From Bacillota bacterium (GTDB lineage: Bacteria > Bacillota > Clostridia > Lachnospirales > Lachnospiraceae): a stretch of DNA of 38,538 nucleotides. Positions 15,926 to 31,014 of the stretch are shown here, piece by piece. Each line of letters begins with the position of its first letter. Positions within the stretch are counted from its first letter, which is position 1. The notes below the pieces were generated by a model. It was not told where the DNA came from. It ran no database searches and was given only the letters and a program-made list of their open reading frames with translations. A program made the translations under genes and the position numbers. The DNA is taken from assembly GCA_029226935.1 (NCBI GenBank), contig JAQXYZ010000022.1, positions 1-38,538 of the forward strand, written 5' to 3'.

Positions 15926-16624
15926 TCATTCCACTTTCATCATCCTGTATCCCACACCCACATGCGTCTGGATATACTGGACAGAATCAGAATTTTTCTC
16001 TAATTTCTTACGAAGTGTTGCCATAAATACCCTTAAGGATGCCACATCATTTTCCCAGCTGTGCCCCCAAATGTTCTGCGTGATAAAGGTATGGGTCAAT
16101 ACCTTCCCCACATTTTTTGAAAGAAGACAGAGCAGCTTGTATTCAATTGGCGTCAGATGAAGTTCCTCCTCTTCGAGATATGCACATCCCGCGGAAAAAT
16201 CAACCCGAAGCTTTCCGTTTACAAATACAGACGACGACACCTGTTCTCCCGAGCTTGTTACCAGTCTTCTTTCTGTGACGCGAAGTCTTGCAAGAAGTTC
16301 TTCCACCGAGAAAGGTTTGGTAAGGTAATCATCTGCCCCCGCATCCAATGCCTCGACCTTGTCCATGTCCTCACTTCTCGCACTGATCACAATAATCGGC
16401 ACATTCGACCATGTACGTATTTTCCTGATCACTTCAATTCCATCCATATCCGGTAGTCCCAAATCAAGCAGGATAATATCCGGGTTATGAGAAGACGCTT
16501 CCAGAATGGCGCCTTCTCCGTTCATTGCAGTCAGATACCTGTAATCATGTGCCTTCAGGGTTGTTACCATAAGATTTTGTACCGGTCTGTCATCCTCCAC
16601 AACTAAAATGAGTGTTTTATTCAT
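15926..16624 (-). CDS. kdpE: KdpE-like response regulator (OmpR/PhoB family)
   Basis: DNA-binding response regulator, 232 residues. The receiver domain (1-115) has the acidic pair D11-D12, phospho-acceptor D54 in LLDLGLPDMDG, and KPF near residue 104. The C-terminal winged helix (about 135-230) has LTPIEYKLLCLLSKN and YIQTHVGVGYRM, as in KdpE. The chosen ATG at 16624 overlaps the end of the kinase gene by 8 nt and has GGAGG 9 nt upstream; an earlier TTG is less likely. Last gene of the trkH-kdpD-kdpE unit, so it probably controls potassium uptake genes. The kdpE name rests on similarity and on the kinase type. Confidence 0.85.
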   Translation of the reverse strand: MNKTLILVVEDDRPVQNLMVTTLKAHDYRYLTAMNGEGAILEASSHNPDIILLDLGLPDMDGIEVIRKIRTWSNVPIIVISARSEDMDKVEALDAGADDYLTKPFSVEELLARLRVTERRLVTSSGEQVSSSVFVNGKLRVDFSAGCAYLEEEELHLTPIEYKLLCLLSKNVGKVLTHTFITQNIWGHSWENDVASLRVFMATLRKKLEKNSDSVQYIQTHVGVGYRMMKVE

Positions 16625-18332
16625 GTAAATCAACCTCCTCTACAGGCAAAGAAAACGTAAACACCGCACCATGAGGTTTATTGTCTGAAAGCTCCAAATT
16701 TCCTCCATGTGCCGTAATGATTGATTTGCAAAGCGACAATCCAAGTCCCAGACTCCTTCTACTGTCAGCCATGCTCTTTGCTCCACTATAAAACATATCA
16801 AATACAAGCTGCTTCATGTCATCGGGAATGCCCGGACCATTGTCGGCAATTCGAACAACTGCCTTTCCCTGTGCCTTCTGTGTTGAAATTATGATTTCCG
16901 AATCCTTCTGGGTATACTTAATTGCATTATCTACAATATTGATAATAACCTGCATAATCAGTCTCGCATCTGCCTTTACAAGAATAAACTCCTCCGACGG
17001 CTGAAAAGAAATTCTGTGCTCTGTCTTCTTTCTGCTGATATGCTGCAGTGCCTCTGCAATCACTTCATCCAAAAGCTCTGTCTGCAATCGGATATTCAGT
17101 TTCCCTTCCTCTATTTTCGTTACAGAAAGCAGATTTTCCACCAGATTAATCAGCCAGATTGAATCGTCATAAATGTCTGAATATAGCTGTTTCTTGGTGC
17201 TGTCGTCAAATTTTTCACCATTGGAAAGTAAATTGCTGGCATTGCCTGATATGGAAGTCAGCGGAGTACGCAGGTCGTGGGAAATGGATCGAAGCAGGTT
17301 TGCCCTGAGCTGCTCCTTTTGCGCTACTAATGCCGCCTCTGCCTTTTCTCTTGCATTCTTCTCATTTTCAAGTGCCAACGCGCATTCTCCAAGAATAGAC
17401 ATTAGTATACTGTTTTCAAAGGAATCCAGTGGTTTGTCCTTAATGACAATTCCAATCACTCCATATACCATATTGCTTGTCCTGATAGACAAATACAGAC
17501 ATTCTGCATCGGGGAACCTATCTGTTGACGCTCCCGCATTCCTTTTATTTTTCAAAACCCAGAGTGCCACCGCTTTCTCTTTTTCAGAGACATATTCCTC
17601 GCACCGCTTCTCACTGTCTGCCCTAAAAACCTTAGGTTCAAGCAGAGCTTCATTCTCTGAAAGGAAAATCACCATGTCTCTGTTTAGAAGCTTAATCAGC
17701 TGGATAGCCGTCACCGTAATAATCTGCTCCTTTTCCCTGACTCCCTCCAAAAGCTGATTGGTATCAAGCAGTATTTTCGTTCGATATGCTGCCTGTGCTG
17801 CCAGTGCAGCCTGCTTTTTCAGCCGGATTGCCAGAGTTCCTGTCAAAAGGGCTGCCACAAGCATGGTAATGAAGGTGACCGGATAATCCTTATCATAGGC
17901 AAGCAATGTATACCGTGGTTCAGTAAATAAAAAATTAAAGACAAAAACACTTACAATAGAAGCAACAATACTATAAATTCGATGGGTTGTAATGACCGAC
18001 GTAAACAAGACACCGAGAATGTATACCATGATGATATTTGCCTCGCTCATTCCCATCTTCCAAAAGCCAAAACCCAGTGCCGAGGCAAGAACAATCATTC
18101 CGATGCTCTTGATGACATCTGCCCCATTCAGCAGATGCCCCGCACTTTTCTTCGCCTGTAATTCTTTATAGTCTGTCTCCGGCTGTACTTTTTCCGCCGG
18201 TTCCTGCTGTTCCAGACCTCTTAATTCTTCCTGAAAACCATCCAGTTTCTTCATGATTATGTATCCTATCAGTACAATCAAAATAAAAATAACCATTAAT
18301 GCAGCTGCTTCCATTATACCACCACCATTCAT
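16617..18332 (-). CDS. kdpD: KdpD-like sensor histidine kinase lacking the N-terminal KdpD/USP region
   Basis: Membrane histidine kinase of 571 residues, against about 890 for full KdpD. One membrane helix (about 10-28) precedes a soluble stretch and a DUF4118-like block of four helices (about 75-170, containing FNFLFTEPRYTL, a KdpD hallmark). A GAF-like region (about 195-325) is followed by the dimerisation/phosphorylation helix LLRSISHDLRTPLTSISGNA with H352. The ATPase domain has DNAIKYT, DNGPGIPD and LGLGLSLCKSI. The cytoplasmic KdpD domain and the universal stress domain are absent. The start may be the ATG at 18332 or six codons later. It lies 17 nt after trkH and overlaps kdpE. Confidence 0.85.
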   Translation of the reverse strand: MNGGGIMEAAALMVIFILIVLIGYIIMKKLDGFQEELRGLEQQEPAEKVQPETDYKELQAKKSAGHLLNGADVIKSIGMIVLASALGFGFWKMGMSEANIIMVYILGVLFTSVITTHRIYSIVASIVSVFVFNFLFTEPRYTLLAYDKDYPVTFITMLVAALLTGTLAIRLKKQAALAAQAAYRTKILLDTNQLLEGVREKEQIITVTAIQLIKLLNRDMVIFLSENEALLEPKVFRADSEKRCEEYVSEKEKAVALWVLKNKRNAGASTDRFPDAECLYLSIRTSNMVYGVIGIVIKDKPLDSFENSILMSILGECALALENEKNAREKAEAALVAQKEQLRANLLRSISHDLRTPLTSISGNASNLLSNGEKFDDSTKKQLYSDIYDDSIWLINLVENLLSVTKIEEGKLNIRLQTELLDEVIAEALQHISRKKTEHRISFQPSEEFILVKADARLIMQVIINIVDNAIKYTQKDSEIIISTQKAQGKAVVRIADNGPGIPDDMKQLVFDMFYSGAKSMADSRRSLGLGLSLCKSIITAHGGNLELSDNKPHGAVFTFSLPVEEVDLHE

Positions 18333-18349
18333 TTTCTCATCTGTTCTTC

Positions 18350-19702
18350 TTAACCAACTGTAATTTTTTCTTTCGGGAACTTTGCTATACTCCTCTTCTT
18401 ATTGGAAAATGCAGCAAAAACCAGTGTAAGAGCGCCTACTCTTCCCAAAAACATTAGAACAATCAATATCATTCTTGACAGAATTCCTAATTCAGGTGTG
18501 ATACCCAGCGTCAGTCCCACCGTTCCAATTGCAGAAGCGGTTTCAAACAGGCAGGTAAGCACCGGCAGTTTTTCAATGCAGCTGATCATGATTCCGCCTG
18601 TCAGAAATAATGCAAGATACATAAGCAAAATCGTGGAAGCATATTTGATTACACTCTCCTCAATTCTTCTCCCGAAGCACTCTGTGTCCTCTTTTCTTTT
18701 AAAAACAGAGAAAAGTGTCATAAAAAGGACTGCTAAGGTGGTCGTTTTGATACCTCCTGCAGTAGAACCCGGCGAACCTCCAATCAACATCAGAAGAATA
18801 GTAATTGTCTGTCCCGCCTCACTAAACAGTGTCAGATCTATCGTGTTAAAGCCTGCAGTTCTCGGCGTAACCGCCTGAAACAGCGCACCCAGAAACTTTT
18901 CCTTAAGGGATAAATCATCCCATACCGGTCCGCGAAACTCCCCAAAAAAGAAAAACAGAAAGGGAAGAAGAATTAGTATCGCTGTGGTGAGCAGTATTAC
19001 CTTGCTTTGCATCCGGTACTTCTCGATATGAATCCCCTTACACCTTATATCATCCCATGTGAGAAATCCGATGCCGCCCAGTACAATCAAGCTGATAATC
19101 ACAGCATTTATCAGACCATTTCCGGCATATCCGGTCAGAGAGGAAAACGGTGCGGCATTTCCCATCAGGTCGAATCCGGCATTGCAAAATGCCGATATGG
19201 AATGAAACAGGGCATACCATGTCCCTAAAAGTACACCATAATCCTTCCAAAAGACAGGCATCATCATGCACGCACCAATCAGCTCGATTAAAATTGTGGC
19301 TCTCAAAATAAATCCTGTTAATCTCACAATGCCACCCAGGCTGGGAGCCGCAATTGCCTCCTGCATCGTACTTCTTTGCATCAGACCAATCTTTTTTCCC
19401 GAAATTGCCGCTACCGACACGGCAATCGTAACAACACCCATCCCTCCAATCTGGATCAACGCTAAAATAACCGCCTGTCCAAATACTGACCAGTAGGTTG
19501 CTGTGTCATATACGACAAGCCCTGTCACACAGGTTGCTGAAGTCGCTGTAAACAGCGCATTCAAAAAAGGAGTTGACTGACCGTCCCTTGCAGAAACAGG
19601 AAGCATAAGTAAAATGCTTCCTGCCAATATAACAAATAAAAAGCCAATAATAATAATCTGAAAGGAAGTCAGATGTTTTCTTCCGTGAAATAAATGTTTC
19701 AT
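18350..19702 (-). CDS. TrkH/KtrB-type potassium uptake channel subunit
   Basis: Membrane subunit of a Trk/Ktr potassium uptake system, 450 residues, the size of KtrB rather than longer TrkH. Four pore-loop repeats are visible with their filter glycines: TCVTGL (57-62), CNAGFD (173-178), RTAGFN (281-286) and GTVGLT (392-397). The segment GGSPGSTAGGIKTTT is the intramembrane loop typical of KtrB. No ktrA/trkA gene lies in the window, so the gating subunit must be elsewhere. It is the first gene of a unit with a KdpD/KdpE-like pair, suggesting the two-component system senses potassium or turgor and controls this channel. Confidence 0.9.
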   Translation of the reverse strand: MKHLFHGRKHLTSFQIIIIGFLFVILAGSILLMLPVSARDGQSTPFLNALFTATSATCVTGLVVYDTATYWSVFGQAVILALIQIGGMGVVTIAVSVAAISGKKIGLMQRSTMQEAIAAPSLGGIVRLTGFILRATILIELIGACMMMPVFWKDYGVLLGTWYALFHSISAFCNAGFDLMGNAAPFSSLTGYAGNGLINAVIISLIVLGGIGFLTWDDIRCKGIHIEKYRMQSKVILLTTAILILLPFLFFFFGEFRGPVWDDLSLKEKFLGALFQAVTPRTAGFNTIDLTLFSEAGQTITILLMLIGGSPGSTAGGIKTTTLAVLFMTLFSVFKRKEDTECFGRRIEESVIKYASTILLMYLALFLTGGIMISCIEKLPVLTCLFETASAIGTVGLTLGITPELGILSRMILIVLMFLGRVGALTLVFAAFSNKKRSIAKFPKEKITVG

Positions 19703-19791: not shown

Positions 19792-20919
19792 TTAAGATTG
19801 TATAAAGGAGCTCCTCTTAAGGAGGCATTCTGTCAGTTCCTGATGTGGCCATGCAAAAGTTTCACGATTCACAATCTGGCTATTCTTTCCATTATCCCAC
19901 CAGATGCAGGGAACGCTTAACCTTCCTGCTGCTTCTATGTAATATTCTGCCCACTCCAGTCTCTCATTCTCATCAGGCTTTTCGTGGCAACCGAATTCCG
20001 TTATCATAACCGGAATTCCTCTTCTATAAAAAATACGGTGGATATCTTCCATTAATTGATCTATCTTTTCCGCATCCTCTCCATTCGGATCAAATTCCTT
20101 TTCCCCATCATCATCAAGCGTAAAGTGATAGGGAATATAGGCATGCACCGATACAATTATATGATCATCTTCCGGGATTTTCAGCTGTTCCAGCGCTTCT
20201 GTCTGATAGCTGTTTCCATAGGGAGCTACCAAAAGCCATCGTTGCTCATTGTTTCCTCCTGTCCTTCGAACCGTGCGGACAAAAGCCTCATTCAGGCGAT
20301 TTACTACCTCCCGGGTTTCTGCAGTCCCGCCCTCCCATTCTTCCTTCGTCCCCCGGACTCTCGGTTCATTCATCCCTTCAAATAAGAGGTGGTCTCCCTT
20401 TTCCCGAAAGATCTCTGCAAGCTGTTCCCATATGGTACACAGCTTTGCAGTCACCTCTTCTTCCCTCTCTACAGTGGGTACAAGCCACTCTTCATGATGG
20501 GTATCAATAATCACATAAAGTCCTGTTTCCAGTGCCCAATCAACCACCTGTGCCACGCGTTCCAGCCAGGCCGGTTCGATGATCCCCCTTTCATCCATGT
20601 GTTCTGCAAAACTGACGGGAATCCTTACCGTTCCAAAGCCTTTCTCAGCAATTGCCTGAAACAATGCCGGTGTCATCTTCGGATTCCCCCAATAAACTTC
20701 AAATTCTTCCGGGAGAGCCTGCGGTTTTCTCTTCCGCAGGCCCACCACATCAAGGGAATTGCCAATATTAATTCCTTCTCCCATTTGCGCCACCTCCCGC
20801 AATCTTCTCTGTCTGTCATTGTACTTTACAGTCATGGCAATCAGGTCAAGAATAAGGAATACCACCATCATCCACAAAATTCTTTTTTTATAAATTTTCT
20901 TAAACATGTTCCATCTCAT
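19792..20919 (-). CDS. Membrane-anchored GH5 endoglucanase in a cellulose synthase operon
   Basis: Glycoside hydrolase family 5 enzyme, 375 residues. One N-terminal membrane helix (about 14-32) anchors it outside the cell. The TIM barrel starts at GINIGNSLD and shows TVRIPVSF, the THH motif (about 140-142), the acid/base E185 in FEGMNEP and the nucleophile E308 in MITEFG. It overlaps the end of the BcsA-like gene; the ATG at 20919 or the one at 20907 could start it, neither with a clearly better site. BcsZ/CcsZ-type glucanases are required for proper cellulose export, so this is likely an editing enzyme for the polymer made by the neighbour rather than a digestive cellulase. Last gene of the operon. 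Confidence 0.9.
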   Translation of the reverse strand: MRWNMFKKIYKKRILWMMVVFLILDLIAMTVKYNDRQRRLREVAQMGEGINIGNSLDVVGLRKRKPQALPEEFEVYWGNPKMTPALFQAIAEKGFGTVRIPVSFAEHMDERGIIEPAWLERVAQVVDWALETGLYVIIDTHHEEWLVPTVEREEEVTAKLCTIWEQLAEIFREKGDHLLFEGMNEPRVRGTKEEWEGGTAETREVVNRLNEAFVRTVRRTGGNNEQRWLLVAPYGNSYQTEALEQLKIPEDDHIIVSVHAYIPYHFTLDDDGEKEFDPNGEDAEKIDQLMEDIHRIFYRRGIPVMITEFGCHEKPDENERLEWAEYYIEAAGRLSVPCIWWDNGKNSQIVNRETFAWPHQELTECLLKRSSFIQS

Positions 20920-23236
20920 GAAATTCTCTTTTCGGCTCTTTTACCTTGGTCTTTGCCTCTTCTTCGCGATGCATTTGAGCCAACTTCCAATGCTTTGCCA
21001 GCCATTTTTCCAGGATCTGTTTCTTTTCAGAATTCAGGTAATTTTCATTATAATTGGTAATCTCATAGAGAACTCTGCCCGGAATTTTCTGCTCATTGCG
21101 TCTTAAGCAAAGCACTACCCCTTTTGGCTTATCAATGACCAGCTGAAGTTCTGCCGGAGAGCTTTCGCTTTCTTTGATCGTGCAGAATTTATAATTAAAA
21201 TCCAGTATCGTCCAGTCATTCCCCTTATCATCCTTAACTATTGCGCCAAGCATCATCCGGGGGAGTTTCCTGTTCTGGAAAAACGGTTTGGCGACTCTCC
21301 TTTTTACATTGATTCTGAGATCATCAAAACTTCCACTTGTGTTATCAAGATTCTGCGGCAGTGTAGGCACACGGTCATAGACCATCTGAAGATATTCTTC
21401 ATAAGTATCACAGTAATCGGTAATCCAAAAAGCGTACTTCCAGAATCCCTTTATATTTTCCACGTGTACGACTCTTGCTTTGATACAGGCTTCGTAGTCT
21501 CTGTCATGAAGCTTCATCCTGACTTCACTTTCATCATCCACATTAATTGGATTATCCAGCATCAAAGCAATCCCCTGCTCAGAAACGTTGTGGGTTCTGC
21601 ATGTATATGCCATATCCCCTGTTTCAAGCCTGCAGTCAATCATTACCGCAGCGCGCTCACATTTTCGCAAGGGCTTTCTTCCCATGATAAAGAACATCGC
21701 CATAACCAGCGTAAAGAGATTAACGATTAACCAGAATAATACAACTACCGGTCCCATATCGTTACTTTCAAATATCAGGTGGAAACAGTTTAATATACCA
21801 ATGACCGACAAAATGACCAGTAACAGGAACGGCACCAGATAAATCATATTTTTTCCGGCTTCGTTCTCCACCTTTCCCTTCTGTGTAACCTGAAACTTTT
21901 TCATAGTGATTCCAAAGGTTTCAAGCAGTACCGGAATTAGCAGGAAGGGAAATAAAACGGTTTCATAAATACCGGTCCACTTTGTAGTTCGGATATTCCT
22001 GCTCAGCATCTTCAGGGAAATATTACTTGTGATATACATGGGCAGCCAAAACAGTAAAATCTGCCACAAAGTACATTTAATCACCATGTATCCGAAGGTT
22101 GCATAAAGTATGGGACTGATAAAGTAAACCAGCCTCTTGAAGGGAGCATACCAATACCATTCGGATGCCCAATAGTTAATCTTCTGGGCAAAGCTCAGAT
22201 CCTTTGAAAGAAAAACATGCATTTTACGATTAGATGAAATTACCCCTCTTGCCCAACGGCTTCTCTGATTGATAAGGCTCTTCAAATCTGTAGGTGACAG
22301 CCCGGAAGCAAGCACCTCATTGGTAGCCAGACACAGGTACCCCTTTTTCTGCATCAAAATACCTGTTGCATAGTCTTCTGTAATCGTCCCTGTATAAAAT
22401 CCCCCGATTTCTTCCAGCGCTTTTCTTGAAAGAACCGTATTAGAGCCGCCGTAAATAACACTATTCGACTTATTTCTGGAAACCTGTATATCGCGGTAAA
22501 AATAATCCTGTTCATTGGGGATTCTCCCCTCACTGTAAAGATTATACTGAAAGAGATCCGGGTTGTAGAAAGCCTGAGGAGTCTGCACAAACCCTATATA
22601 TTTCCGATCTTTTTCTTCTTTTCCCTCGTTTTCCATCTCCTGTTTCACAAAGAACGGTATCGTGTGCATCAGCATGTCACCGTGAGGTACCATATCTGCA
22701 TCCAATGTCAGAATATATGGTGAATCCGTTACAGACATGGCATGATTCAGATTTCCCGCCTTGGCATATTCATGGTCTTCTCTATCCAGATAGTTCACGC
22801 CCATTTTTGCTGCAAGGCTGCGAACCTCCTGTCTGCTTCCGTCATCACACAAATAAATATGAACCTTATTTTTATCCGGGTATTTCATATGCTTACAGCC
22901 ATTTACCGTCTTAAGCAGCAGCTCGGCAGGTTCATTATATGTGGCAATAAAAACATCCACATCAGGGTACATGCAGACAGGTATCTGTGGCAGATCCTTC
23001 TTTTGAATGTCATGCATATTAAAATAATGTACCAGCGCCTCAAACATTCCCAAAAATTCCACTACAAAAAGTGTGATGCCGGCAATGATTGAAATCAGCC
23101 CATATTCAAACGGAATCGTAAAAAACAGACGCCAGATCAGATAAATCGTCGTAAACAGGATATTCAGCATAAACCATATCCTGTTCTTTCCTCCTTTCAG
23201 TTTTCTTTTCAATCCCTTCTTTTCTTTTTCTTCCAT
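20900..23236 (-). CDS. BcsA-like cellulose synthase catalytic subunit with PilZ domain
   Basis: Processive GT2 glucosyltransferase. The ATG at 23236 follows GGGGAG and gives 778 residues; a GTG seven codons upstream is possible. Membrane helices at about 20-70 lead to the GT domain with DDG (131-133), DAD (179-181), YGGSN near 263, TED (286-288) and QRSRW (324-328), the processive set. More helices follow, then a PilZ domain with an RxxxR motif (about 520-528) and NVSEQG (550-555), both needed for c-di-GMP binding. About 130 further residues (after 640) form a second soluble domain of unknown role. No BcsB is encoded nearby. Its position next to GH5, MBOAT and AlgX-like genes suggests an acylated cellulose-like polymer. 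Confidence 0.9.
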   Translation of the reverse strand: MEEKEKKGLKRKLKGGKNRIWFMLNILFTTIYLIWRLFFTIPFEYGLISIIAGITLFVVEFLGMFEALVHYFNMHDIQKKDLPQIPVCMYPDVDVFIATYNEPAELLLKTVNGCKHMKYPDKNKVHIYLCDDGSRQEVRSLAAKMGVNYLDREDHEYAKAGNLNHAMSVTDSPYILTLDADMVPHGDMLMHTIPFFVKQEMENEGKEEKDRKYIGFVQTPQAFYNPDLFQYNLYSEGRIPNEQDYFYRDIQVSRNKSNSVIYGGSNTVLSRKALEEIGGFYTGTITEDYATGILMQKKGYLCLATNEVLASGLSPTDLKSLINQRSRWARGVISSNRKMHVFLSKDLSFAQKINYWASEWYWYAPFKRLVYFISPILYATFGYMVIKCTLWQILLFWLPMYITSNISLKMLSRNIRTTKWTGIYETVLFPFLLIPVLLETFGITMKKFQVTQKGKVENEAGKNMIYLVPFLLLVILSVIGILNCFHLIFESNDMGPVVVLFWLIVNLFTLVMAMFFIMGRKPLRKCERAAVMIDCRLETGDMAYTCRTHNVSEQGIALMLDNPINVDDESEVRMKLHDRDYEACIKARVVHVENIKGFWKYAFWITDYCDTYEEYLQMVYDRVPTLPQNLDNTSGSFDDLRINVKRRVAKPFFQNRKLPRMMLGAIVKDDKGNDWTILDFNYKFCTIKESESSPAELQLVIDKPKGVVLCLRRNEQKIPGRVLYEITNYNENYLNSEKKQILEKWLAKHWKLAQMHREEEAKTKVKEPKREFHEMEHV

Positions 23237-23260
23237 TTTTCTCCCCTTACAACTCACTTA

Positions 23261-24088
23261 TTAATCTTCTACATTCAATTTCTTTCCATCACTTTGGAAT
23301 ATTACATCTCTCTCCCCCGTATAAAACACAGCCGTGCCGTTTCTTTCTGCTGCCCGGAGGATCTGTTCGTCTGCCTGATTGGCAGTTACAACTGCATATT
23401 CCGGCTTCAGTCTGTCAAACAATTCCTCTGTCATCACATTGCCTCTCCCATGATGTGCGACCTTATATAAATCTATTTTGGGCCAATCAATCAGAAGAAG
23501 TTCCTCTGTTCTTTTTTTCAATGCATCTCCTGCAAACATCATATTCACATTTCCATGTTTTGCTAAAACTGCCAGTGAATAATTGTTGGAATCCCTATAG
23601 TTCTTTTCCAAAGGCGGATAAACCAGAAGTTGAATCTCTCCTGCCCTCAGATGCTGGGTATGTACCGGATAAAGAACCGGTATCCCCTTTTGCTCAAGCA
23701 AACGGTTTAATTCCTCCATCTCTTCATCTGCCTTCTCGTACCCTGACTCAACAACATATGTTACCGGAATACTTTCCAGAATCTGTGCTGCTCCCCCTAT
23801 ATGATCAGAATCTCCGTGAGAGAGTATCATATAGTCCAGTTTTTCTACATTGCACCTCTTCAACATTTCCATTATATGCTCTGCATCCTCTTTCGTTCCG
23901 GTATCAATCATTACCGCTGCTCCCTCATGATAAATAAGAGTCGCATCCGCATCCTCTTTTGTATTCATACAGATAACCCTTACGCTTTCCCCACCTTTGC
24001 TTATTGTCGGATTACTCTTATAACAGACTCCTGCCAGCAAAAGAAGAAAAAGAGCCCAGCCCAGACCTGTCAGTATTTTTTGTTTCAT
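23261..24088 (-). CDS. Secreted/anchored metallo-beta-lactamase-fold protein (ComEC C-terminal type)
   Basis: The product has 275 residues with an N-terminal membrane helix (about 5-22) that places the rest outside the cell. The metal-binding set is H91, D93, D95, H96 (SHGDSDHIGG), D188 (FAGDAL) and H212-H213, as in the hydrolase domain of ComEC/Rec2. It lacks the ComEC channel and DNA-uptake domains. Its ATG overlaps the stop of the AlgX-like gene by four bases (ATGA), so it belongs to the exopolysaccharide operon. Such stand-alone proteins are usually called phosphodiesterase-like hydrolases; the substrate here is unknown and could be a phosphorylated polymer or lipid. Confidence 0.82.
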   Translation of the reverse strand: MKQKILTGLGWALFLLLLAGVCYKSNPTISKGGESVRVICMNTKEDADATLIYHEGAAVMIDTGTKEDAEHIMEMLKRCNVEKLDYMILSHGDSDHIGGAAQILESIPVTYVVESGYEKADEEMEELNRLLEQKGIPVLYPVHTQHLRAGEIQLLVYPPLEKNYRDSNNYSLAVLAKHGNVNMMFAGDALKKRTEELLLIDWPKIDLYKVAHHGRGNVMTEELFDRLKPEYAVVTANQADEQILRAAERNGTAVFYTGERDVIFQSDGKKLNVED

Positions 24089-25317
24089 GCATCCCCCTGC
24101 TCCACTGTTTTTTGATAGAAATAAAATGACCCCTCATTCAGATTATATGGATAAATTTCAAGTATCACATAATCGGCATCACTTTCTTCCACAAACTTTT
24201 CAAAATCCATATCATTATGTGCCGTCCTGTTCCACACCATTTCAATTTCACTGCACATTGGCGCTAAAAAGCATGCCATGGGAGAAAAGTAAGAATCTCT
24301 GAGTACCGCAAGCTTAGGGCCATTCGGATTGCTGTGATTTACAATCTTATCATGTGTTGTCACTTCATCCAGATACACCATGTTGATACTGCCATTATAA
24401 ATATCTTCCGATTTAAGAACTCTTTGATCAAACAATGCCTCCCTAAAGTCTCCCGTCTGCTCTCTTCCTCTTTCGTAGTTATACCATGTAAATTCCATAT
24501 CACACTTTGGCCAGATCAGTAAATAGTCATCCATACCACTGTAAATGACACCTGCATTGCGCCCCTGAGAGCCTAACATTCTTTGAAGATAAAATTTTGT
24601 CTGGCAGTTTGAAAGATCCGTATAACGACCTTCCGGATCCCACTGTTCTCCATATTGCTTCTCCACCTGCTTTACCAACTCCTTTGTTGCAAGAAAAGCA
24701 GCAAGGGGCGTCCAGTGATGATCTGTCTTAAAGAAAAGATCCTCCAGTTTTTCTCCGGATTTCGTTATTGGAAGACGCATATCAACTGCAAACACACCGT
24801 TTTTCATCATCAGATTTAAAAATTTATCCATTCTTGCATTGGGGTCATTGATTGGCCATTCCCTGTTTACGTCACTGACTCCATAAAGAACCTTGGAGGG
24901 TGGAAGCACCACAATCAATTTTGCCCCCTTTTTTTCTACCACGTCTTTCAGCCTTCTCACATTCCCTGCATATTCATCCAGATCGTCATCCACGGTATCT
25001 GCCAGTGCACCATAATAGAGCATTCCATTATCATCCCTGATATAGGAAAAATGGTTGAACTCTCTTTTTCCAAGTATCTTCTGCATGAAACCATAGGTTT
25101 CAATAAATCGGATATTTCCCAAAGTCTCCTCCGCAGATTTTGCTTCTGCCTCCTGCATCCACGCTTCCAGCATTTCTACCGTTTCCACATCCATCAGTTC
25201 TTTCCGCAATCCTGCCCACACATCCGCACAGGAAAATGCATTCAATACCGAAAAGCCCAGTAAAAAAATCAGGAACAGCGCTGCGAAGAAATACTTTTTC
25301 AAAAAAAACCTTTTCAT
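24085..25317 (-). CDS. AlgX/AlgJ-type (DHHW family) extracytoplasmic acyltransferase-like protein
   Basis: The product has 410 residues with an N-terminal membrane anchor (about 8-28). The body is an SGNH-hydrolase-like fold: the DHHW motif at 199-202 (FFKTDHHWTP) and a serine motif LRDSYFSP with S342. These match the AlgX/AlgJ/DltD-like proteins that transfer acetyl groups from a partner MBOAT protein to a polysaccharide outside the cell. The MBOAT gene lies 15 nt upstream, the usual pairing. The transferred group and the acceptor are inferred; the acceptor is presumably the glucan made by the BcsA-like protein. Confidence 0.85.
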   Translation of the reverse strand: MKRFFLKKYFFAALFLIFLLGFSVLNAFSCADVWAGLRKELMDVETVEMLEAWMQEAEAKSAEETLGNIRFIETYGFMQKILGKREFNHFSYIRDDNGMLYYGALADTVDDDLDEYAGNVRRLKDVVEKKGAKLIVVLPPSKVLYGVSDVNREWPINDPNARMDKFLNLMMKNGVFAVDMRLPITKSGEKLEDLFFKTDHHWTPLAAFLATKELVKQVEKQYGEQWDPEGRYTDLSNCQTKFYLQRMLGSQGRNAGVIYSGMDDYLLIWPKCDMEFTWYNYERGREQTGDFREALFDQRVLKSEDIYNGSINMVYLDEVTTHDKIVNHSNPNGPKLAVLRDSYFSPMACFLAPMCSEIEMVWNRTAHNDMDFEKFVEESDADYVILEIYPYNLNEGSFYFYQKTVEQGDA

Positions 25318-25332
25318 TCTCCTGTATCCCCC

Positions 25333-26775
25333 CTAAAAATTAAAGTAAATAAACGGATTATAGCCGCCCCGGACAAGATAAGTCAGGCAAAGCAGAAAAA
25401 CCGCCGCCATCGCTGCCGGATACAAAATATTCATTATTTTCCCGACAATGCCTGCTTTTCCTTCTGCCAACGCCCGATTACACCGCTTTGCCACAGGAAG
25501 GCAGAACAGAATTCCCAAAAGCAGAAAGAAGCCATATTCCCTGAAAAGGAATCCTGTCAGTTCACTAAAAAAACCGTTTTGATTGAATCCAAACAGATTT
25601 TTGAAATAAATATTTGCCTGATACAGATCTTTTGCCCGAAACAAGACCCAGCCAAACATAACCACCAGCATGGTATATATATGCATCAGAATTTTATGTG
25701 TGTTATTTACCGCATATCCAAAAAAGCGTTCTGCAATCTGAAACAAAAAGTGCCATAGTCCCCAGAAAAGAAATGTCCACGCCGCTCCGTGCCAGATGCC
25801 GGTCAGCAGCCATACAATCAAAAGATTTCGTATCATTCGGTCCTTATTCTCCACCCGGCTTCCTCCCAGCGGAAAATACACATACTCTCTGAACCATCTT
25901 GTCAGACTGATGTGCCATCTGTGCCAAAAATCCTGCATGGAAGAGGCAGCATATGGGTAATCAAAGTTTTCTTCAAACTTAAATCCGAACATCACTCCAA
26001 GTCCGATTGCCATATCCGAGTATCCCGAAAAATCAAAATAAATCTGCAGTGTATACGCAATAATTCCCAGCCATGCCATCAATACCGGCACCTGAAAGTT
26101 TTCCACTCCCATCTGCGACCAGCTGAAAATCTGGTCAGCAAGAATGGCAAAATTATTCGCAAGTAAAATCTTTTTCCCAAGTCCTGTTACAAAGCGGCAT
26201 ACCCCAACCGATATTTTCCTGTAGGTGCTCTTTCTGTTTCGAATTTCCTTGGCAACCTGATTGTAACGGACAATCGGTCCCGCAATCAGCTGAGGGAAAA
26301 ACGCAATATAAAGCCCTACATAAAAAGGATTTTTTTCTGCTTTGGTATCTCCTCTGTAAACATCAATCACATAACTGAGCGCTTGAAAGGTATAGAAGGA
26401 AATACCTATAGGAAGGGTGGGGACCCAGATATTCGGAACATCCATCTTTAACAGCGTACAAATATTGTCCACCACAAATCCCATGTATTTGAACAGAAAC
26501 AGTGTTCCTATATCAATTACGATAACCGATATCAAAATTTTCTTTTTTATCTTTAGTTTCTCTTCCCAGTGGGCAATCAGAATTCCTCCTGCCCAATTTA
26601 AAAATATGAACCCCAGCATAAGAAACACATAGACAGGCTCACCCCATGCATAAAACAGGATGCTCGCCAGAAACAGCCATATATTCTGTGCCATCCTAGA
26701 AAAGGACATCAGATAATACCCTGCAAATACAATGGGCAAAAAATATAACAGAAAAATAATACTCGAAAAAAGCAT
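25333..26775 (-). CDS. MBOAT family O-acyltransferase (AlgI-like)
   Basis: Polytopic membrane protein of 480 residues, typical AlgI/DltB size. Family marks are QALSYVIDVYRG, YFDFSGYSDMAIGLG (about 246-260), FWHRWHISLTRWFREYVYFP (283-302) and the catalytic histidine H329 in GIWHGAAWTF. It moves acyl groups across the membrane for an extracytoplasmic acceptor protein, here the DHHW protein encoded next. In alginate and acetylated cellulose (Wss) systems the same pair O-acetylates the polymer. GGTGAGG site before the ATG; it lies 17 nt after the CotH gene. Confidence 0.93.
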   Translation of the reverse strand: MLFSSIIFLLYFLPIVFAGYYLMSFSRMAQNIWLFLASILFYAWGEPVYVFLMLGFIFLNWAGGILIAHWEEKLKIKKKILISVIVIDIGTLFLFKYMGFVVDNICTLLKMDVPNIWVPTLPIGISFYTFQALSYVIDVYRGDTKAEKNPFYVGLYIAFFPQLIAGPIVRYNQVAKEIRNRKSTYRKISVGVCRFVTGLGKKILLANNFAILADQIFSWSQMGVENFQVPVLMAWLGIIAYTLQIYFDFSGYSDMAIGLGVMFGFKFEENFDYPYAASSMQDFWHRWHISLTRWFREYVYFPLGGSRVENKDRMIRNLLIVWLLTGIWHGAAWTFLFWGLWHFLFQIAERFFGYAVNNTHKILMHIYTMLVVMFGWVLFRAKDLYQANIYFKNLFGFNQNGFFSELTGFLFREYGFFLLLGILFCLPVAKRCNRALAEGKAGIVGKIMNILYPAAMAAVFLLCLTYLVRGGYNPFIYFNF

Positions 26776-26792
26776 TCTTCCTCACCTTCTCT

Positions 26793-28391
26793 CTACTTCC
26801 TAAGGACTACATAAGCCGCCGGAATAAAAAATATACAGGATGCCAGCAGAAGAAGATACCCCATCCACTCGTCAAGTCCTGTTGTCCTGTCGGTCTGTTT
26901 TTCCATTCTCCTGATAGCCTCCGGTATCCGGTCGTCATGATCCCGAAGGGCTGTCTTAATCCGATAAATTTCATCCTGATAGGTTACGGCATTCCTTGTT
27001 AATATCTCACCATCTTCTGCTTCTTCCGGCAGCAGACTGTATTTATTTTCTGTCGCATACCAATGCCCCCAGCGATACCAGTCTCTCTGACTTGCACCTC
27101 CTAAATGGGCTACAATTTCATCTATCTTATCAATCACATGTTTTTCCGAGAAGGAAGTCCGGCGCAGCTCCACATATCGTTTCTCCATTTTTTTAACAAA
27201 ATTCTCATCCCTGCAAAGCCGGTCAAACCAAGGCTTGGTCTGAAATGCCATATCTTCCACCGACAAAGCCTCCGGTCTGTAATTATCCATGGTTCCGTCA
27301 AAGTCCCAAACCGGACCCATCTTCAATTTTCCACCCACGTCCTTGTAACAATATGTGGAAAAATTTCCCGCATCATAGCTTGCAAAAAATTCATTCAATA
27401 GAAAATAGTCAATAAAAGAATCTACATCAATCACTTCTGAATATCGGGAAAATACTTTCGGGTCATCTGAATAAATCACTTCCTCTATCCTGCTGATGTC
27501 CTTTTCCACATACCGGATTGTATCATCACTTGCTTTGAGGCGCGTAGGATAGCGCAATTCAAAAAACTCTTTGCTATATCCATTTATCTGTCCATAAGTC
27601 TTTAGAATATTGACATTCTCCTCATAACGGTCTCTTCGAAGCAGATAGCTGTTAAAAACATCTCCTTCCTTATATTCCGCTATATCTACTCTGTCAGGAC
27701 CCTGTTTAATGCTTTCCATCAGAAGGTAGACACCCTGATAGGTATACCGGTTTCCGTCCCTCATAATTACCTCACAGTAATAACTGTCCGGTGTGCAGGG
27801 CATAAACTCTGATGCGATACTATATGCCAGATAATTTCTCAAAAGGCTTTTATCAAACATAGAACCGTTCAGAATCCATTCATGTTCCTTACCCATTCCC
27901 AAAATATCAATATCATTGTCCTGCCCGGACTGTGCAACAAGCTTTATCATCCACTGTGCTTTCTCATAAAGCATGGAAGAATTTCCTCTTCGCTTGATCC
28001 GCATGGAGCTTACTGTCTGCGGTGTGTCCTTCAAACAGTTTAACTCCTCTTTTCCATTAATAATGGAAATTGTTCCTTCCACATACGGCTCTACTCCATC
28101 TATTGCAATAAATCTCTTCTGTTCCGTGTCCAGCCAGGTATTAATTGGCGGTTCCACTCCATTGGTATCCAGAAGTACAATGGGTAAATGACTGCTGAAG
28201 TTTTCATCTACGGAAAAATCCTTCCCGATATATCTGATTGCATCCTGTTCTACCGGCGCTGCCTTAAGTGGTTCTTCATAAGAATTATGTTTCTCTATCC
28301 TGTGCTCCTTTTGATACAGAATCGTAGCAATTCCGCAGGAGAAGAGCATAAACAGAATACTTAAAGTCCCTATAATCCGAAAGCTTCTCAT
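26793..28391 (-). CDS. CotH-family kinase-like membrane protein
   Basis: The product has 532 residues with a membrane helix at each end (about 7-25 and 508-528), so the large middle domain is outside the cell. The CotH kinase fold is recognised by the N-terminal RRGNSSM motif, YYCEVIM, GVYLLMESI and the active-site string GPVWDFDGTMDN (around residue 360). Spore-coat CotH is an atypical secreted protein kinase, but this gene lies in an exopolysaccharide operon next to VTC-domain and DUF4956 genes, a trio that also occurs together in other bacteria. The target (protein or glycan) is unknown. GGAG site 7 nt before the ATG. Confidence 0.88.
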   Translation of the reverse strand: MRSFRIIGTLSILFMLFSCGIATILYQKEHRIEKHNSYEEPLKAAPVEQDAIRYIGKDFSVDENFSSHLPIVLLDTNGVEPPINTWLDTEQKRFIAIDGVEPYVEGTISIINGKEELNCLKDTPQTVSSMRIKRRGNSSMLYEKAQWMIKLVAQSGQDNDIDILGMGKEHEWILNGSMFDKSLLRNYLAYSIASEFMPCTPDSYYCEVIMRDGNRYTYQGVYLLMESIKQGPDRVDIAEYKEGDVFNSYLLRRDRYEENVNILKTYGQINGYSKEFFELRYPTRLKASDDTIRYVEKDISRIEEVIYSDDPKVFSRYSEVIDVDSFIDYFLLNEFFASYDAGNFSTYCYKDVGGKLKMGPVWDFDGTMDNYRPEALSVEDMAFQTKPWFDRLCRDENFVKKMEKRYVELRRTSFSEKHVIDKIDEIVAHLGGASQRDWYRWGHWYATENKYSLLPEEAEDGEILTRNAVTYQDEIYRIKTALRDHDDRIPEAIRRMEKQTDRTTGLDEWMGYLLLLASCIFFIPAAYVVLRK

Positions 28392-28409
28392 CCATATTCT
28401 CCGTTTCTG

Positions 28410-29087
28410 TTATCGGTTGATCTCATCATTCTGACACACGATATTAACCACATCCAGCTTGGCATTTGATTGAAAATATTTGATGATGTCTCCGCTTTCC
28501 TTCGCTTTTCTTATCTGTCGCTCCGATACTTCATAGATGTATTCCACCCCTGCCTGTGTTGCATTATGTACAATCATTCTCGCCTTCCCGGCAAATTTGT
28601 CATCCACCATATTTTCTACCGTCTCGTCACATTCCTTGTTTCCCCGCAGTATCAGAAGATACCTGTCATTATTCCTTATCATCCCGAAAATCAACATAAA
28701 TCCAAAAATGACAGCCGTCCCTACTGCAGCAATCAGATATTCCGATACCCCACAGCAAATCCCCGCAGCAATGCACCAGAAAATATATACGGTATCTCTC
28801 GGATCTTTAATTGCCGTTCTGAAACGAACAATAGAAAGGGCTCCGACCATACCAAGTGATAACGCAATATTATTTCCAATTACGTTCATAACAAGTGTCG
28901 TTACCAGTGTAAGCATGACCAGCGAAACATTAAATCGCGCACTGTATGCGGCTCCCCCGTGTGAAATGCGATAGGACAGATAAATCACTCCCCCAATTAC
29001 TGCCGCAGTCAGAAAGTTCAGTAACACATCCTGTATCGTCAGTGCTCCTGTACTTGTCACAAGATAGTTCATCATTTCTTCTTTCAT
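28410..29087 (-). CDS. DUF4956 membrane protein
   Basis: The product has about 225 residues. Four membrane helices fill the first 140 residues, including SLGMVGALSIVRFRTAIKDP, the DUF4956 signature that resembles the MgtC-type GxLSIVRFRT loop. A small soluble alpha/beta domain of about 85 residues follows. The ATG at 29087 is preferred because a GGAGGG lies just before it; an ATG four codons earlier overlaps that site. It sits between the VTC-domain gene (16 nt away) and cotH, the usual partners of this family. The function is unknown; a membrane partner of the VTC protein is plausible. Confidence 0.85.
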   Translation of the reverse strand: MKEEMMNYLVTSTGALTIQDVLLNFLTAAVIGGVIYLSYRISHGGAAYSARFNVSLVMLTLVTTLVMNVIGNNIALSLGMVGALSIVRFRTAIKDPRDTVYIFWCIAAGICCGVSEYLIAAVGTAVIFGFMLIFGMIRNNDRYLLILRGNKECDETVENMVDDKFAGKARMIVHNATQAGVEYIYEVSERQIRKAKESGDIIKYFQSNAKLDVVNIVCQNDEINR

Positions 29088-29115
29088 TTTTCCCTCCATT
29101 TTCCTCTACTTTTCC

Positions 29116-29820
29116 CTATATATCTTTCCCCAAAAAGAAATTGCGTGACGCCCCATATTTGCTGGCTGATGTCTGCACACAAAAAGGCAGTGAAACCATA
29201 TCTTTTATGTAAGTTAACAAAAAACGATTAAACTTGATCTCCATCGTCCCGAATCCATCCACACCAATTGGATAAAAAGATAGATTTTCTGCAAAAAGTT
29301 CACTGCATGCTTCACTTGCCCTAAGACCCGTGTCAAAGGTAACTCTGGTGTCATTGTCCTGTACCACAAATGCTTTTCTATCATATTCAATCAGGCATTT
29401 GGGGCGGTAAACAAACTGCTTCATCCTGCCATAAAGCTCCAACGCAAATTCCGTCTGCTGCTTTAGGAGCACCTCATAATCCCCCTCACAGACACACTCT
29501 GCATCCTGCCTTGAAAGTATTAATGAGCGCTTCCTCTGAAGCTTTCCCTGCTTCTCTTTAAGTTCCAGTTTCGCATACTGATCCTTTGAGTCATAAATCC
29601 TTAACCGAATTTTTCTCCGATTCTCATATCCATCCACCTTGTCAAAATAATCTGAATTATCCGGTGTATCAAAATAAAGAGAACGGACCGAATACCCTTC
29701 AGGGCTGCCATGTGCATCCTGACACATCACCTGCGACAGGTGATGTATCATCCATGCTGTTTCTACACGGTTCAACCGATATTTCTGTTCAGTCCGCAAT
29801 ACATCCAATATTTCTGCCAT
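29116..29820 (-). CDS. VTC-domain (polyphosphate polymerase-type) protein
   Basis: The product has 234 residues from the ATG at 29820, which follows a GGAGAGGGGG tract; an open frame continues 39 codons upstream to a TTG but crosses the leader hairpin and is not used. The tunnel-fold motifs of the VTC/CYTH-like superfamily are present: TEQKYRLNR, RSLYFDTPDN, RRKIRLRIYD, KLELKEKQ, LIEYDRKAF, RVTFDTGLRAS and TMEIKFNR. Yeast Vtc4 makes polyphosphate in this tunnel. Bacterial versions are found with DUF4956 and CotH but their products are mostly untested. First gene of the eight-gene operon. Confidence 0.88.
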   Translation of the reverse strand: MAEILDVLRTEQKYRLNRVETAWMIHHLSQVMCQDAHGSPEGYSVRSLYFDTPDNSDYFDKVDGYENRRKIRLRIYDSKDQYAKLELKEKQGKLQRKRSLILSRQDAECVCEGDYEVLLKQQTEFALELYGRMKQFVYRPKCLIEYDRKAFVVQDNDTRVTFDTGLRASEACSELFAENLSFYPIGVDGFGTMEIKFNRFLLTYIKDMVSLPFCVQTSASKYGASRNFFLGKDI

Positions 29821-29871
29821 TCTTCCCCCTCTCCTCTTCTCCCAAGTCCCCTTCATACTTTTTTGGGAAAT

Positions 29872-29921
29872 AAAAAAAAGACAGTACTTTTCCTCCTTAA
29901 GAAGTCTAAGCTCCGTCTTTT
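29872..29921 (-). terminator. Terminator-like hairpin in the exopolysaccharide operon leader
   Basis: On the minus strand AAAAGAC (29915-29921) pairs with GTCTTTT (29876-29882) and is followed by eight T in total. The 32-nt loop can form smaller stems (CTTA/TAAG) and contains an AAGGAGG. It lies between the promoter at 29955-29983 and the first gene, so it could act as an attenuator. No known riboswitch class was recognised. Confidence 0.5.
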
Positions 29922-29954
29922 CTAATAGTATCTTCAATTTTTCAGATGCTGTTG

Positions 29955-29983
29955 ATTATAGCACTCTCTTTTTCTAATTGCAA
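29955..29983 (-). promoter_or_regulatory. Sigma-A promoter of the exopolysaccharide operon
   Basis: Minus-strand TTGCAA (29978-29983), 17-nt spacer, perfect TATAAT (29955-29960). It gives a leader of about 125 nt before the VTC-domain gene. Confidence 0.7.
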
Positions 29984-30096: not shown

Positions 30097-30879
30097 TTAC
30101 AAGAACAGCTTCGCGAGATCTCTTGCCCACGCCAGATAAGTGGGAACAATCTCATCAAGCAGCCTCTTTACCTCAACACTATCCTGTGCTGTAAGTTCTC
30201 CGAGCTTTTCGTAAACGCTGCCTATCGCCTTCGTATCTCCCAAGGCAATCATTGCTCTGGCATGATCCCCCATGGCAAAATATTTTCCTATTGCCATGGC
30301 TCCAACCGAAAAGTTACCAACTGCAATTGCACCGGATGAAATAATTCCTAGGCTGATTGCACCTGCAGCAAGCACACCGGCAGAAAAACAGCCTGCAGAT
30401 AAGATTCCGATTGCCAGCATACCAAGGGAAACTAACCCCAGAGCTAACAATCCATAAGACAATATTCCTATAGAAAGTATGCCGACAGACAGCACGCCCA
30501 TAGCTTTTATTCCAATGGCAATGATACCGCGGGCATTCAGCCCTACAGCCACAATCCCTCTTGCGTTGCGTCCGACATGCCATAAGGGCATACCCCATAG
30601 CATCTTTTTACTTTTCCTTTCTCGAAAAACTTTCCTGAAAACAGAAATTGTGTTGTCATTTTGTACCTTATCATCTGTTTCCATTGTTTCTTTCAGCAGA
30701 TAATCCAATGAGCAGTCATACAGCTCACTGATTCTGATCAGCTTATCCGTTTCAGGATAAGCGATGTCACTTTCCCATTTACTGATTGCCTGTCTGGAAA
30801 CTCCCAGTATATCGGCAAGCTGCTCCTGCGTGTAGTTGTTTTCTTTTCTTAATTTTGATAGTTTATCGCCTAGTGTCAT
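30097..30879 (-). CDS. XRE-family HTH protein with 19 five-residue repeats
   Basis: The product has 260 residues from the ATG at 30879, which has GGAGG 7 nt upstream (a start ten codons earlier precedes that site). Residues 5-62 are an XRE helix-turn-helix (YTQEQLADILGVSRQAISKW). Residues 106-200 are 19 unbroken pentads of the form (A/S)-x-G-x-x, e.g. SVGIL, SIGIL, SLGML, SAGVL. This resembles pentapeptide-repeat solenoids but with a central Gly instead of Leu/Phe. A short helical tail follows. It is not a typical membrane protein because the periodicity is strict. It lies upstream of the exopolysaccharide operon on the same strand but has separate transcription signals; regulating that operon is only a guess. 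Confidence 0.8.
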   Translation of the reverse strand: MTLGDKLSKLRKENNYTQEQLADILGVSRQAISKWESDIAYPETDKLIRISELYDCSLDYLLKETMETDDKVQNDNTISVFRKVFRERKSKKMLWGMPLWHVGRNARGIVAVGLNARGIIAIGIKAMGVLSVGILSIGILSYGLLALGLVSLGMLAIGILSAGCFSAGVLAAGAISLGIISSGAIAVGNFSVGAMAIGKYFAMGDHARAMIALGDTKAIGSVYEKLGELTAQDSVEVKRLLDEIVPTYLAWARDLAKLFL

Positions 30880-31014
30880 AGTGCGTCCTCCATTCTGAGC
30901 TGTCAACTCGTGTCAATCATATCCGACAGCCCTGTTAATAGCCATCATTTTGCGATTTCTAAATGTAAACTTTGGGTTGCGAACCCTCTATGACAGCAAA
31001 TTTTGCACTTAATC

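Follow-up and report, generated by a model that had tools for sequence, protein, structure and literature searches.

A ccs-like cellulose operon from a Lachnospiraceae genome with VTC, DUF4956 and CotH genes and without CcsB

Introduction

The ccsZABHI operon, which encodes a GH5 protein, a GT2-PilZ synthase, CcsB, an MBOAT protein and a DHHW protein, has been proposed to direct the synthesis of O-acetylated cellulose (Scott et al. 2020, PMC7710045); in such Gram-positive systems CcsB is proposed to be the counterpart of BcsB. For another polymer, Pel, genes for CotH, a poly-phosphate polymerase, DUF4956 and DUF4832 lie contiguous with the pel genes of Gram-positive bacteria (Whitfield et al. 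2020, PMC7112168). In S. intermedius, deletion of the DUF4956 or the CotH gene lowers aggregation and alters the amount of Pel, which rises upon loss of DUF4956 and falls upon loss of CotH (PMC12345266; all three papers are cited here from the available parts of their text). Here we analyse an operon that joins VTC, DUF4956 and CotH genes (the trio) to a ccs-like set, in a stretch of 38,538 nucleotides (nt) from a Bacillota bacterium of the family Lachnospiraceae (GenBank assembly GCA_029226935.1, contig JAQXYZ010000022.1, positions 1 to 38,538). This whole stretch is referred to below as the window.

A first-pass annotation, made from the letters of the window alone, had taken the trio to be no part of described cellulose systems. 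The terms CotH, VTC and DUF4956 are absent from the main text of PMC7710045. Unknown to that annotation, the trio was already in print as an accessory of Gram-positive Pel loci (available parts of PMC7112168 and PMC12345266). The authors of the latter work, according to the available portion of their article, failed to find the three-gene arrangement outside the Pel locus, and among the open-licence papers inspected we found none that links the trio to BcsA or cellulose.

Results

An operon of eight closely spaced genes

The operon runs from about 29820 to 19792, with all eight genes on the minus strand, and each product scores above the curated cut-off of a Pfam family. Read from 5' to 3', with protein lengths in amino acids (aa), it comprises:

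29116..29820, minus strand: VTC-domain polyphosphate polymerase, 234 aa (PF09359, 123.7 bits)
28410..29099, minus strand: DUF4956 membrane protein, 229 aa, with an MgtC-like membrane part and a soluble C-terminal part (PF16316, 45.2 bits)
26793..28391, minus strand: CotH kinase-family protein, 532 aa (PF08757, 186.3 bits; D340, D363, D365)
25333..26775, minus strand: MBOAT O-acyltransferase, CcsH-like (PF03062, 108.8 bits)
24085..25317, minus strand: AlgX/DHHW acyltransferase, CcsI-like (PF16822, 65.5 bits; PF14286, 25.7 bits; DHHW at 199, RDS at 340)
23261..24088, minus strand: metallo-beta-lactamase-fold hydrolase with an N-terminal membrane segment and a ComEC-like domain (PF00753, 66.9 bits; HGDSDH, HHG; hydrophobic residues 5-23)
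20900..23257, minus strand: GT2-PilZ cellulose synthase catalytic subunit, BcsA/CcsA (Pfam GT2, PilZ and Cellulose_synt; DAD, TED, QRSRW, RxxxR, NVSEQG)
19792..20919, minus strand: GH5 endoglucanase, CcsZ-like, with an N-terminal membrane segment (PF00150, 200.7 bits; NEP, TEF; hydrophobic residues 14-32)

This is the order and the single direction that the first-pass annotation had read, and the distances along the operon (16, 18, 17, 15, -4, 3 and -20 nt) come close to the 15-24 nt or overlaps that it had given. The view that the eight genes make up one functional unit is supported. CcsB is absent among them, and a profile of five relatives (A3) found no convincing CcsB match in the window's genome, which is 98% complete in 161 contigs (best E 0.026, 13.2 bits).

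Distribution of the trio and of CcsB at BcsA loci

Two samples of genomes were examined. The first drew one genome per genus from the window's family, 200 in all, and a BcsA match at E <= 1e-60 was present in 20 of them. The trio adjoined BcsA in five of these 20 (G000, the window's own genome, and G100, G168, G086 and G107) and a CcsB-like gene of about 380 aa was present in five others (G122, G143, G144, G170 and G054). One more (G127) had MBOAT and AlgX without trio or CcsB, and the remaining nine had none of these, except for a CotH of another branch near the BcsA of G112. The second sample consisted of the best 80 of 579 confirmed BcsA loci from named genomes, in which partners were sought with their own profiles on the same strand and within 9 kilobases (kb). 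The whole trio stood at 19 of these 80 loci, making it more frequent than CcsB, which was found at eight (at L133 with only 31 bits), and no locus carried trio and CcsB together. CotH without VTC and DUF4956 was present at three more, namely L100, at a contig end, L133 and L149. These counts include loci cut by contig ends; among the 52 loci flanked on each side by 4.5 kb or more, 15 had the trio and seven had CcsB.

At the 25 named loci that carry both MBOAT and AlgX, CotH was present without CcsB in 17 cases and CcsB without CotH in six, with both at L133 and neither at L161, which is cut by a contig end (Fisher p 2.6e-4 for exclusivity, relatedness not corrected). The whole trio was present at 15 of the 25. 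The first-pass annotation had named a separation of trio and cellulose module in nearly all relatives as refuting its reading, and such a separation is thus not what is seen. Within the sequence covered, trio loci without MBOAT or without both acylation genes also exist (L113, L115 with a right flank of 827 bases, L136 and L152), and neither MBOAT nor AlgX was found beside the trio and BcsA at L113, L152, L115 and L207. Among culturable carriers, Asaccharospora irregularis DSM 2635 has VTC-DUF4956-CotH-BcsA-GH5 and Anaerophilus nitritogenes has the complete set. The distribution of the locus in the window's genus is patchy: BcsA occurs in two of 37 genomes (the window's own and G272), both with the trio. 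In a BcsA tree built by a quick method from 52 rows, 18 of them of other type, the trio loci fall into two separated parts and the CcsB loci into others; two changes between trio and CcsB suffice when the other rows are ignored and nine when all three labels are counted, their direction not being given.

The CcsB-like gene sits between BcsA and MBOAT, and the profile of its family matches PDB 8smq, named CD630_25440 of C. difficile (E 2.1e-19), which we read as CcsB because of its gene number and the shared layout. The family is thus very likely the CcsB of Scott et al., as judged from these matches. A C-terminal membrane segment was predicted in 10 of 11 CcsBs.

Two loci have unusual contents. 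At L118, the frames for CotH, MBOAT, AlgX and DUF4956 are each present twice around a single BcsA, and L133 has the order BcsA-CcsB-MBOAT-AlgX followed by GH5-CotH-MBOAT; its genome gave one VTC match.

A CotH lineage of BcsA loci with a predicted C-terminal anchor

The CotH protein of the window has hydrophobic segments at both ends (residues 6-24 and 512-530) and aligns weakly with solved CotH structures (E 0.00024 and 0.0033); D340, D363 and D365 are presumably its catalytic and metal-binding residues. In a tree of 61 rows, again built by a quick method, 26 of the 28 CotHs found near BcsA form one branch (support 93 in the Shimodaira-Hasegawa-like approximate likelihood ratio test, SH-aLRT), those of L066 and L124 placing elsewhere although they too lie near BcsA. 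Sister to this branch are seven CotHs (SH-aLRT 99) whose loci encode a protein of about 700 aa and another with HEAT repeats, with a GT2 gene in addition at six of these loci, and 15 Pel-linked CotHs form a separate branch (SH-aLRT 100).

Membrane segments were predicted by a hydrophobicity scan with a threshold of 1.6. Every one of the 26 CotHs on the BcsA branch showed a C-terminal segment, in some cases near the threshold (L149 at 1.62), and none of the seven other-GT2 or the 15 Pel-linked CotHs did. The N-terminal segment was present in 25 of the 26, the exception (L093) being a shortened frame. Because the last eight residues hold at least one basic residue in all 26 tails, and two or more in most, and the N-terminus is basic as well, the kinase domain is predicted to lie outside the membrane.

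Of the 26 CotHs of the branch, 25 retain both D340 and D363. The exception comes from L149, a locus of a Planctomycetaceae metagenome-assembled genome (MAG) of 4.3 megabases, where both aspartates are lost and a marginal C-terminal segment is kept. There the order is CotH-BcsA-MBOAT-AlgX; neither VTC nor DUF4956 lies within 9 kb, and the genome itself gave no VTC match. We found no paper on the CotH aspartate in the open-licence literature.

VTC and DUF4956 form a constant pair

The VTC protein showed no membrane segment in the hydrophobicity scan and no further domain in Pfam. A profile of 21 relatives matches yeast Vtc4 (best E 4.9e-7); R72 and R74, which align to Vtc4 R264 and R266 with the numbering offset set by hand, are invariant in the 21 sequences, as are E11, K13, K88, R148, R159, E194, K196 and K221. 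Vtc4 is inactivated when R264, R266 and E426 are changed together (available part of PMC9911596), and we infer that E194 may be the equivalent of E426, a position outside the printed alignment.

The DUF4956 protein has five hydrophobic segments, all within residues 21-141, and aligned along its length to MgtC proteins (hhalign E 5.6e-5, probability 66%), in agreement with the description of the family as MgtC plus ACT in the available text of PMC12345266. The phosphoryl-transfer type of fold that the first-pass annotation had assumed for it left no sign in this comparison, and no relative in sequence was found among solved structures. DUF4956 adjoins VTC in all of the 30 best-scoring VTC matches and at all 24 VTCs of BcsA loci.

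Trio genes beside other synthases

Twelve of 14 PelG loci examined carry CotH, VTC and DUF4956; of 12 PelG loci fetched, 10 had been chosen for CotH and two for its absence, so the proportion is not a frequency. By coordinates, CotH lies within about 4 kb of PelG in at least 13 of the 35 family genomes with PelG. PelG (PF16933) had no match in the window's genome, the only pel gene searched for there.

A third arrangement, VTC-DUF4956-CotH followed by a protein of about 700 aa, a HEAT-repeat protein and GT2, was found at seven loci of the window's family, six of them with the GT2 gene. Apparently the C. perfringens locus NELoc-2 belongs to it as well: the available text of PMC2879425 lists VTC, CotH, a gene called chitin synthase and a small membrane protein called tubulin/FtsZ, and the last of these is probably DUF4956, to judge from its size and place. 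The same set, with a protein of about 690 aa, is plasmid-borne in Planococcus maritimus (NZ_CP059541.1, L208).

Synthase, acylation and hydrolase genes

Except for CcsB, the cellulose module consists of the same gene families as ccsZABHI, which bears out the acylated-cellulose logic proposed in the first-pass annotation. The nearest named BcsA loci are those of Eubacteriales and Lachnospiraceae. The synthase scores 399.9 bits against the CelA-like NCBIfam model TIGR03030, under the model cut-off of 699.1. Control by cyclic di-GMP, also claimed from the outset, agrees with the PilZ motifs RxxxR and NVSEQG and with 24 GGDEF matches in the genome. The meanings given to the motifs of the synthase, PilZ domain, AlgX, hydrolase and GH5 proteins are those that we take them to have. 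As for the hydrolase, which had been called ComEC-like, its metallo-beta-lactamase domains match and ComEC/Rec2 matches only below the cut-off. Its gene occurs at seven of 19 trio loci versus none of eight CcsB loci (p 0.07), which is only suggestive of a link with the trio.

The genome holds a second synthase operon (contig C147, L212, 5618-8766), in which a GT2 gene follows a weak GGDEF match and overlaps a BcsB homologue that reaches the contig end, and which we take to resemble a yda-type operon. Because it overlaps the end of this separate GT2 gene, the genome's single BcsB homologue most likely belongs to another synthase.

The BcsA frame exceeds 900 aa at 23 of the 80 named loci, among them the trio locus L139. 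Excluding L139, BcsA is extended at its N-terminus by about 330-590 aa at L116, L123, L146 and 19 further named loci of this group, as well as at L063. In the three checked by Pfam it consists of GH5 followed by a membrane segment, making these proteins glucanase-synthase fusions. Such GH5-BcsA records come from Butyrivibrio, Lachnospiraceae and Fibrobacter, with Treponema among the remaining long-frame records. The idea of a fused CcsB in these proteins of about 1050 aa was rejected, the extension being GH5 in the three checked and hhalign against CcsB giving a probability of 2.3%. At the Paenibacillus BcsA locus L128, a GT2-GtrA protein precedes BcsA and a polytopic membrane protein of 617 aa follows it; genes of similar size were seen at L132, L138 and L141-L143. 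The idea that this gene of about 620 aa is BcsB-like is unsupported, the L128 protein being polytopic and without a Pfam match or a solved relative.

Operon start and flanking genes

The VTC gene most likely starts at the ATG at 29820, which is preceded by AGAGGGGGAAGA; the mechanical open reading frame begins at a TTG at 29937. Two candidate signals lie upstream:

29955..29983, minus strand: promoter-like site, TTGCAA-N17-TATAAT, its second hexamer preceded by TG (10/12 matches)
29874..29923, minus strand: predicted leader hairpin, its 3' arm continuing into a run of U residues, which stops some 50 nt short of the VTC start

The single strong promoter of the first-pass annotation is therefore plausible in that a 10/12 site is present, and less secure in that shuffled sequence yields roughly as many such sites (29.8 +/- 5.9, versus 37 in the scanned region, the class not being clearly above chance). 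The hairpin is a possible attenuator. The fold of the 128-nt leader is not significant against shuffles (z-score -0.75), and a rough script, which in the window measured from the mechanical TTG start, found hairpins 5' of VTC in some relatives only. A riboswitch was considered and rejected: the window has no Rfam match at the gathering threshold, and the leader gave only one weak, chance-level match. Rfam scans of six trio loci from the named set of 19 returned only an L10 leader and 6S RNA, both elsewhere.

After the operon, a gap of 89 nt leads to genes for a TrkH potassium transporter (by Pfam) and a sensor-kinase-like protein (by eye) at 16617-19702 on the minus strand, which seem to be a separate unit. 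On the other side, at 30097-30906 on the minus strand, lies a gene for a helix-turn-helix regulator (by Pfam) with a long C-terminal tract of repeated hydrophobic units around 'SIGILS' (by eye).

Discussion

The operon is very probably a variant of ccs in which the trio occupies the place of CcsB. By homology, BcsA would make beta-1,4-glucan under cyclic di-GMP control and move it through the membrane, while MBOAT and AlgX would acylate the glucan and GH5 would trim it, as in described systems. CotH, anchored at both ends and with its kinase domain outside at the exit of the synthase, would act in the role of CcsB; for such an outer partnership with the synthase we see about an even chance. 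Outside the membrane there is no ATP for a kinase. We propose polyphosphate as the donor because an external CotH would be without ATP and because DUF4956 stands constantly beside VTC: VTC would make polyphosphate from ATP inside the cell, DUF4956 would pass it across the membrane, and CotH would use it to phosphorylate the emerging glucan or an acceptor in the wall or matrix. Polyphosphate-driven phosphorylation of the glucan is doubtful when taken by itself, and the explanation as a whole, with a ccs variant, CotH as outer partner and VTC and DUF4956 as phosphate donor, falls somewhat short of an even chance. The first-pass annotation, whose observation is confirmed, finds its interpretation partly supported.

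A donor-plus-kinase module would explain the recurrence of the three families beside several polymer synthases. In the broadest version, VTC and DUF4956 would be a two-part polyphosphate synthase-exporter feeding an extracytoplasmic CotH that phosphorylates nascent cellulose, a portable module with its own CotH lineage for each of at least three unrelated synthases (BcsA, Pel and a GT2 resembling chitin synthase); in the lineage linked to cellulose, CotH would also have replaced CcsB as the anchored partner. This version we regard as rather improbable. If the donor model is true, an external kinase could work without ATP, and phosphorylated cellulose is predicted; in the available parts of the open-licence literature we found no report of phosphorylated cellulose from such an operon.

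Several observations weigh against the proposed explanation. Deletion of the polyphosphate-polymerase gene of S. intermedius had no reported effect in the available text of PMC12345266, which is not as expected of an obligatory phosphate donor. VTC-DUF4956 pairs occur without CotH nearby, none of 30 pairs having a CotH match in its flanks of roughly 1.5 kb. In Deinococcus no polymer synthase is annotated among the neighbours of the trio, which is therefore not specific to polysaccharide. At L060, MBOAT and AlgX are accompanied by neither the trio nor CcsB, and L133 combines CcsB with a CotH whose aspartates are intact. The C-terminal segment is also predicted in four of 11 CotHs at loci without a recognised synthase, and its presence throughout the BcsA branch is probably one evolutionary event rather than 26. 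Finally, the L149 protein, which serves as a control for the loss of the aspartates, comes from a single MAG; 29 genomes of its class yielded only itself and a fragment in one further genome.

Of the alternatives, the one that survives best gives the trio a regulatory task: CotH would phosphorylate the synthase or a wall protein, DUF4956 and VTC would tune phosphate or ATP, output would follow phosphate status, and the polymer would carry no phosphate. CotH has been described as a spore-coat protein kinase, and regulation of Pel by phosphorylation was suggested by Whitfield et al. (available part of PMC7112168). DUF4956, moreover, resembles MgtC, for which an action on ATP synthase and phosphate metabolism is reported (available part of PMC12345266), and the shifts of Pel in opposite directions upon loss of DUF4956 and of CotH would fit as well. 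CotH is predicted to lie outside, however, so that the membrane would separate it from ATP and from the PilZ domain in the cytoplasm, and the C-terminal anchor of the BcsA branch together with the near-exclusivity with CcsB suggests a role at the synthase itself, which leaves regulation a possible but less than probable reading. Alternatively, exported polyphosphate might itself be a component of the matrix, as a charged filler or metal chelator, with CotH as a non-kinase structural partner of BcsA. L149, where an anchored CotH persists beside BcsA despite the lost aspartates, and the VTC-DUF4956 pairs without CotH nearby would suit this idea, but the retention of D340 and D363 in all other members of the BcsA branch argues for catalysis, and we consider it unlikely. 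Hitch-hiking of two unrelated modules on one transcript could appeal to how common the parts are (VTC in 150 and CotH in 106 of the 200 family genomes) and is very improbable, because it is contradicted by the linkage data, with the trio at 19 of 80 BcsA loci, in separated parts of the BcsA tree and with one CotH branch specific to these loci.

Preferring the reading as a ccs variant with an anchored CotH as outer partner has consequences for how such systems are delimited, as a second partner set, unrelated to CcsB, changes which genes count as part of the machine. All three families of the trio recur beside three different synthases, despite the finding of none outside Pel in the available part of PMC12345266, and for this reason the role of the trio is likely general to polymer export and not specific to Pel.

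Comparison with known systems

The eukaryotic VTC complex shares the VTC polymerase domain and couples polyphosphate synthesis to passage through the membrane (available part of PMC9911596), whereas the VTC of the window has no further domain or membrane segment and DUF4956 has no demonstrated kinship to Vtc1. With the acetylated cellulose of the Gram-negative Wss/Bcs systems the operon has in common the logic of a synthase plus acylation; it differs in that no BcsB is present among the eight proteins and in that GH5 takes the place of the GH8 stated for the Gram-negative system in the available text of PMC7710045. A protein with a CotH domain is also encoded among the twisted-stalk genes of Zetaproteobacteria, but the terms VTC and DUF4956 are absent from the text describing them.

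The HEAT-GT2 set has the same trio order as the window's operon and a sister branch of CotH. It has a chitin-synthase-like GT2 instead of the PilZ synthase, no MBOAT or AlgX, and CotHs without the C-terminal anchor (0/7). The Gram-positive Pel locus (pelDEADAFG) likewise has the same three accessory families contiguous with polymer-synthesis genes, yet its synthase is another one, the order is CotH-VTC-DUF4956 in the 12 Pel loci with the trio, and its CotHs lack the C-terminal anchor (0/15) and form a branch of their own. Closest of all is ccsZABHI, in which GH5, the GT2-PilZ synthase, MBOAT and DHHW genes are adjacent just as they are here, so that four of five ccs families are matched; the window's operon is without CcsB, which is CBM11-like and membrane-anchored, and has VTC, DUF4956, CotH and the metallo-beta-lactamase hydrolase added. 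The trio itself is already in print at Pel loci; here it stands at BcsA in an operon without CcsB.

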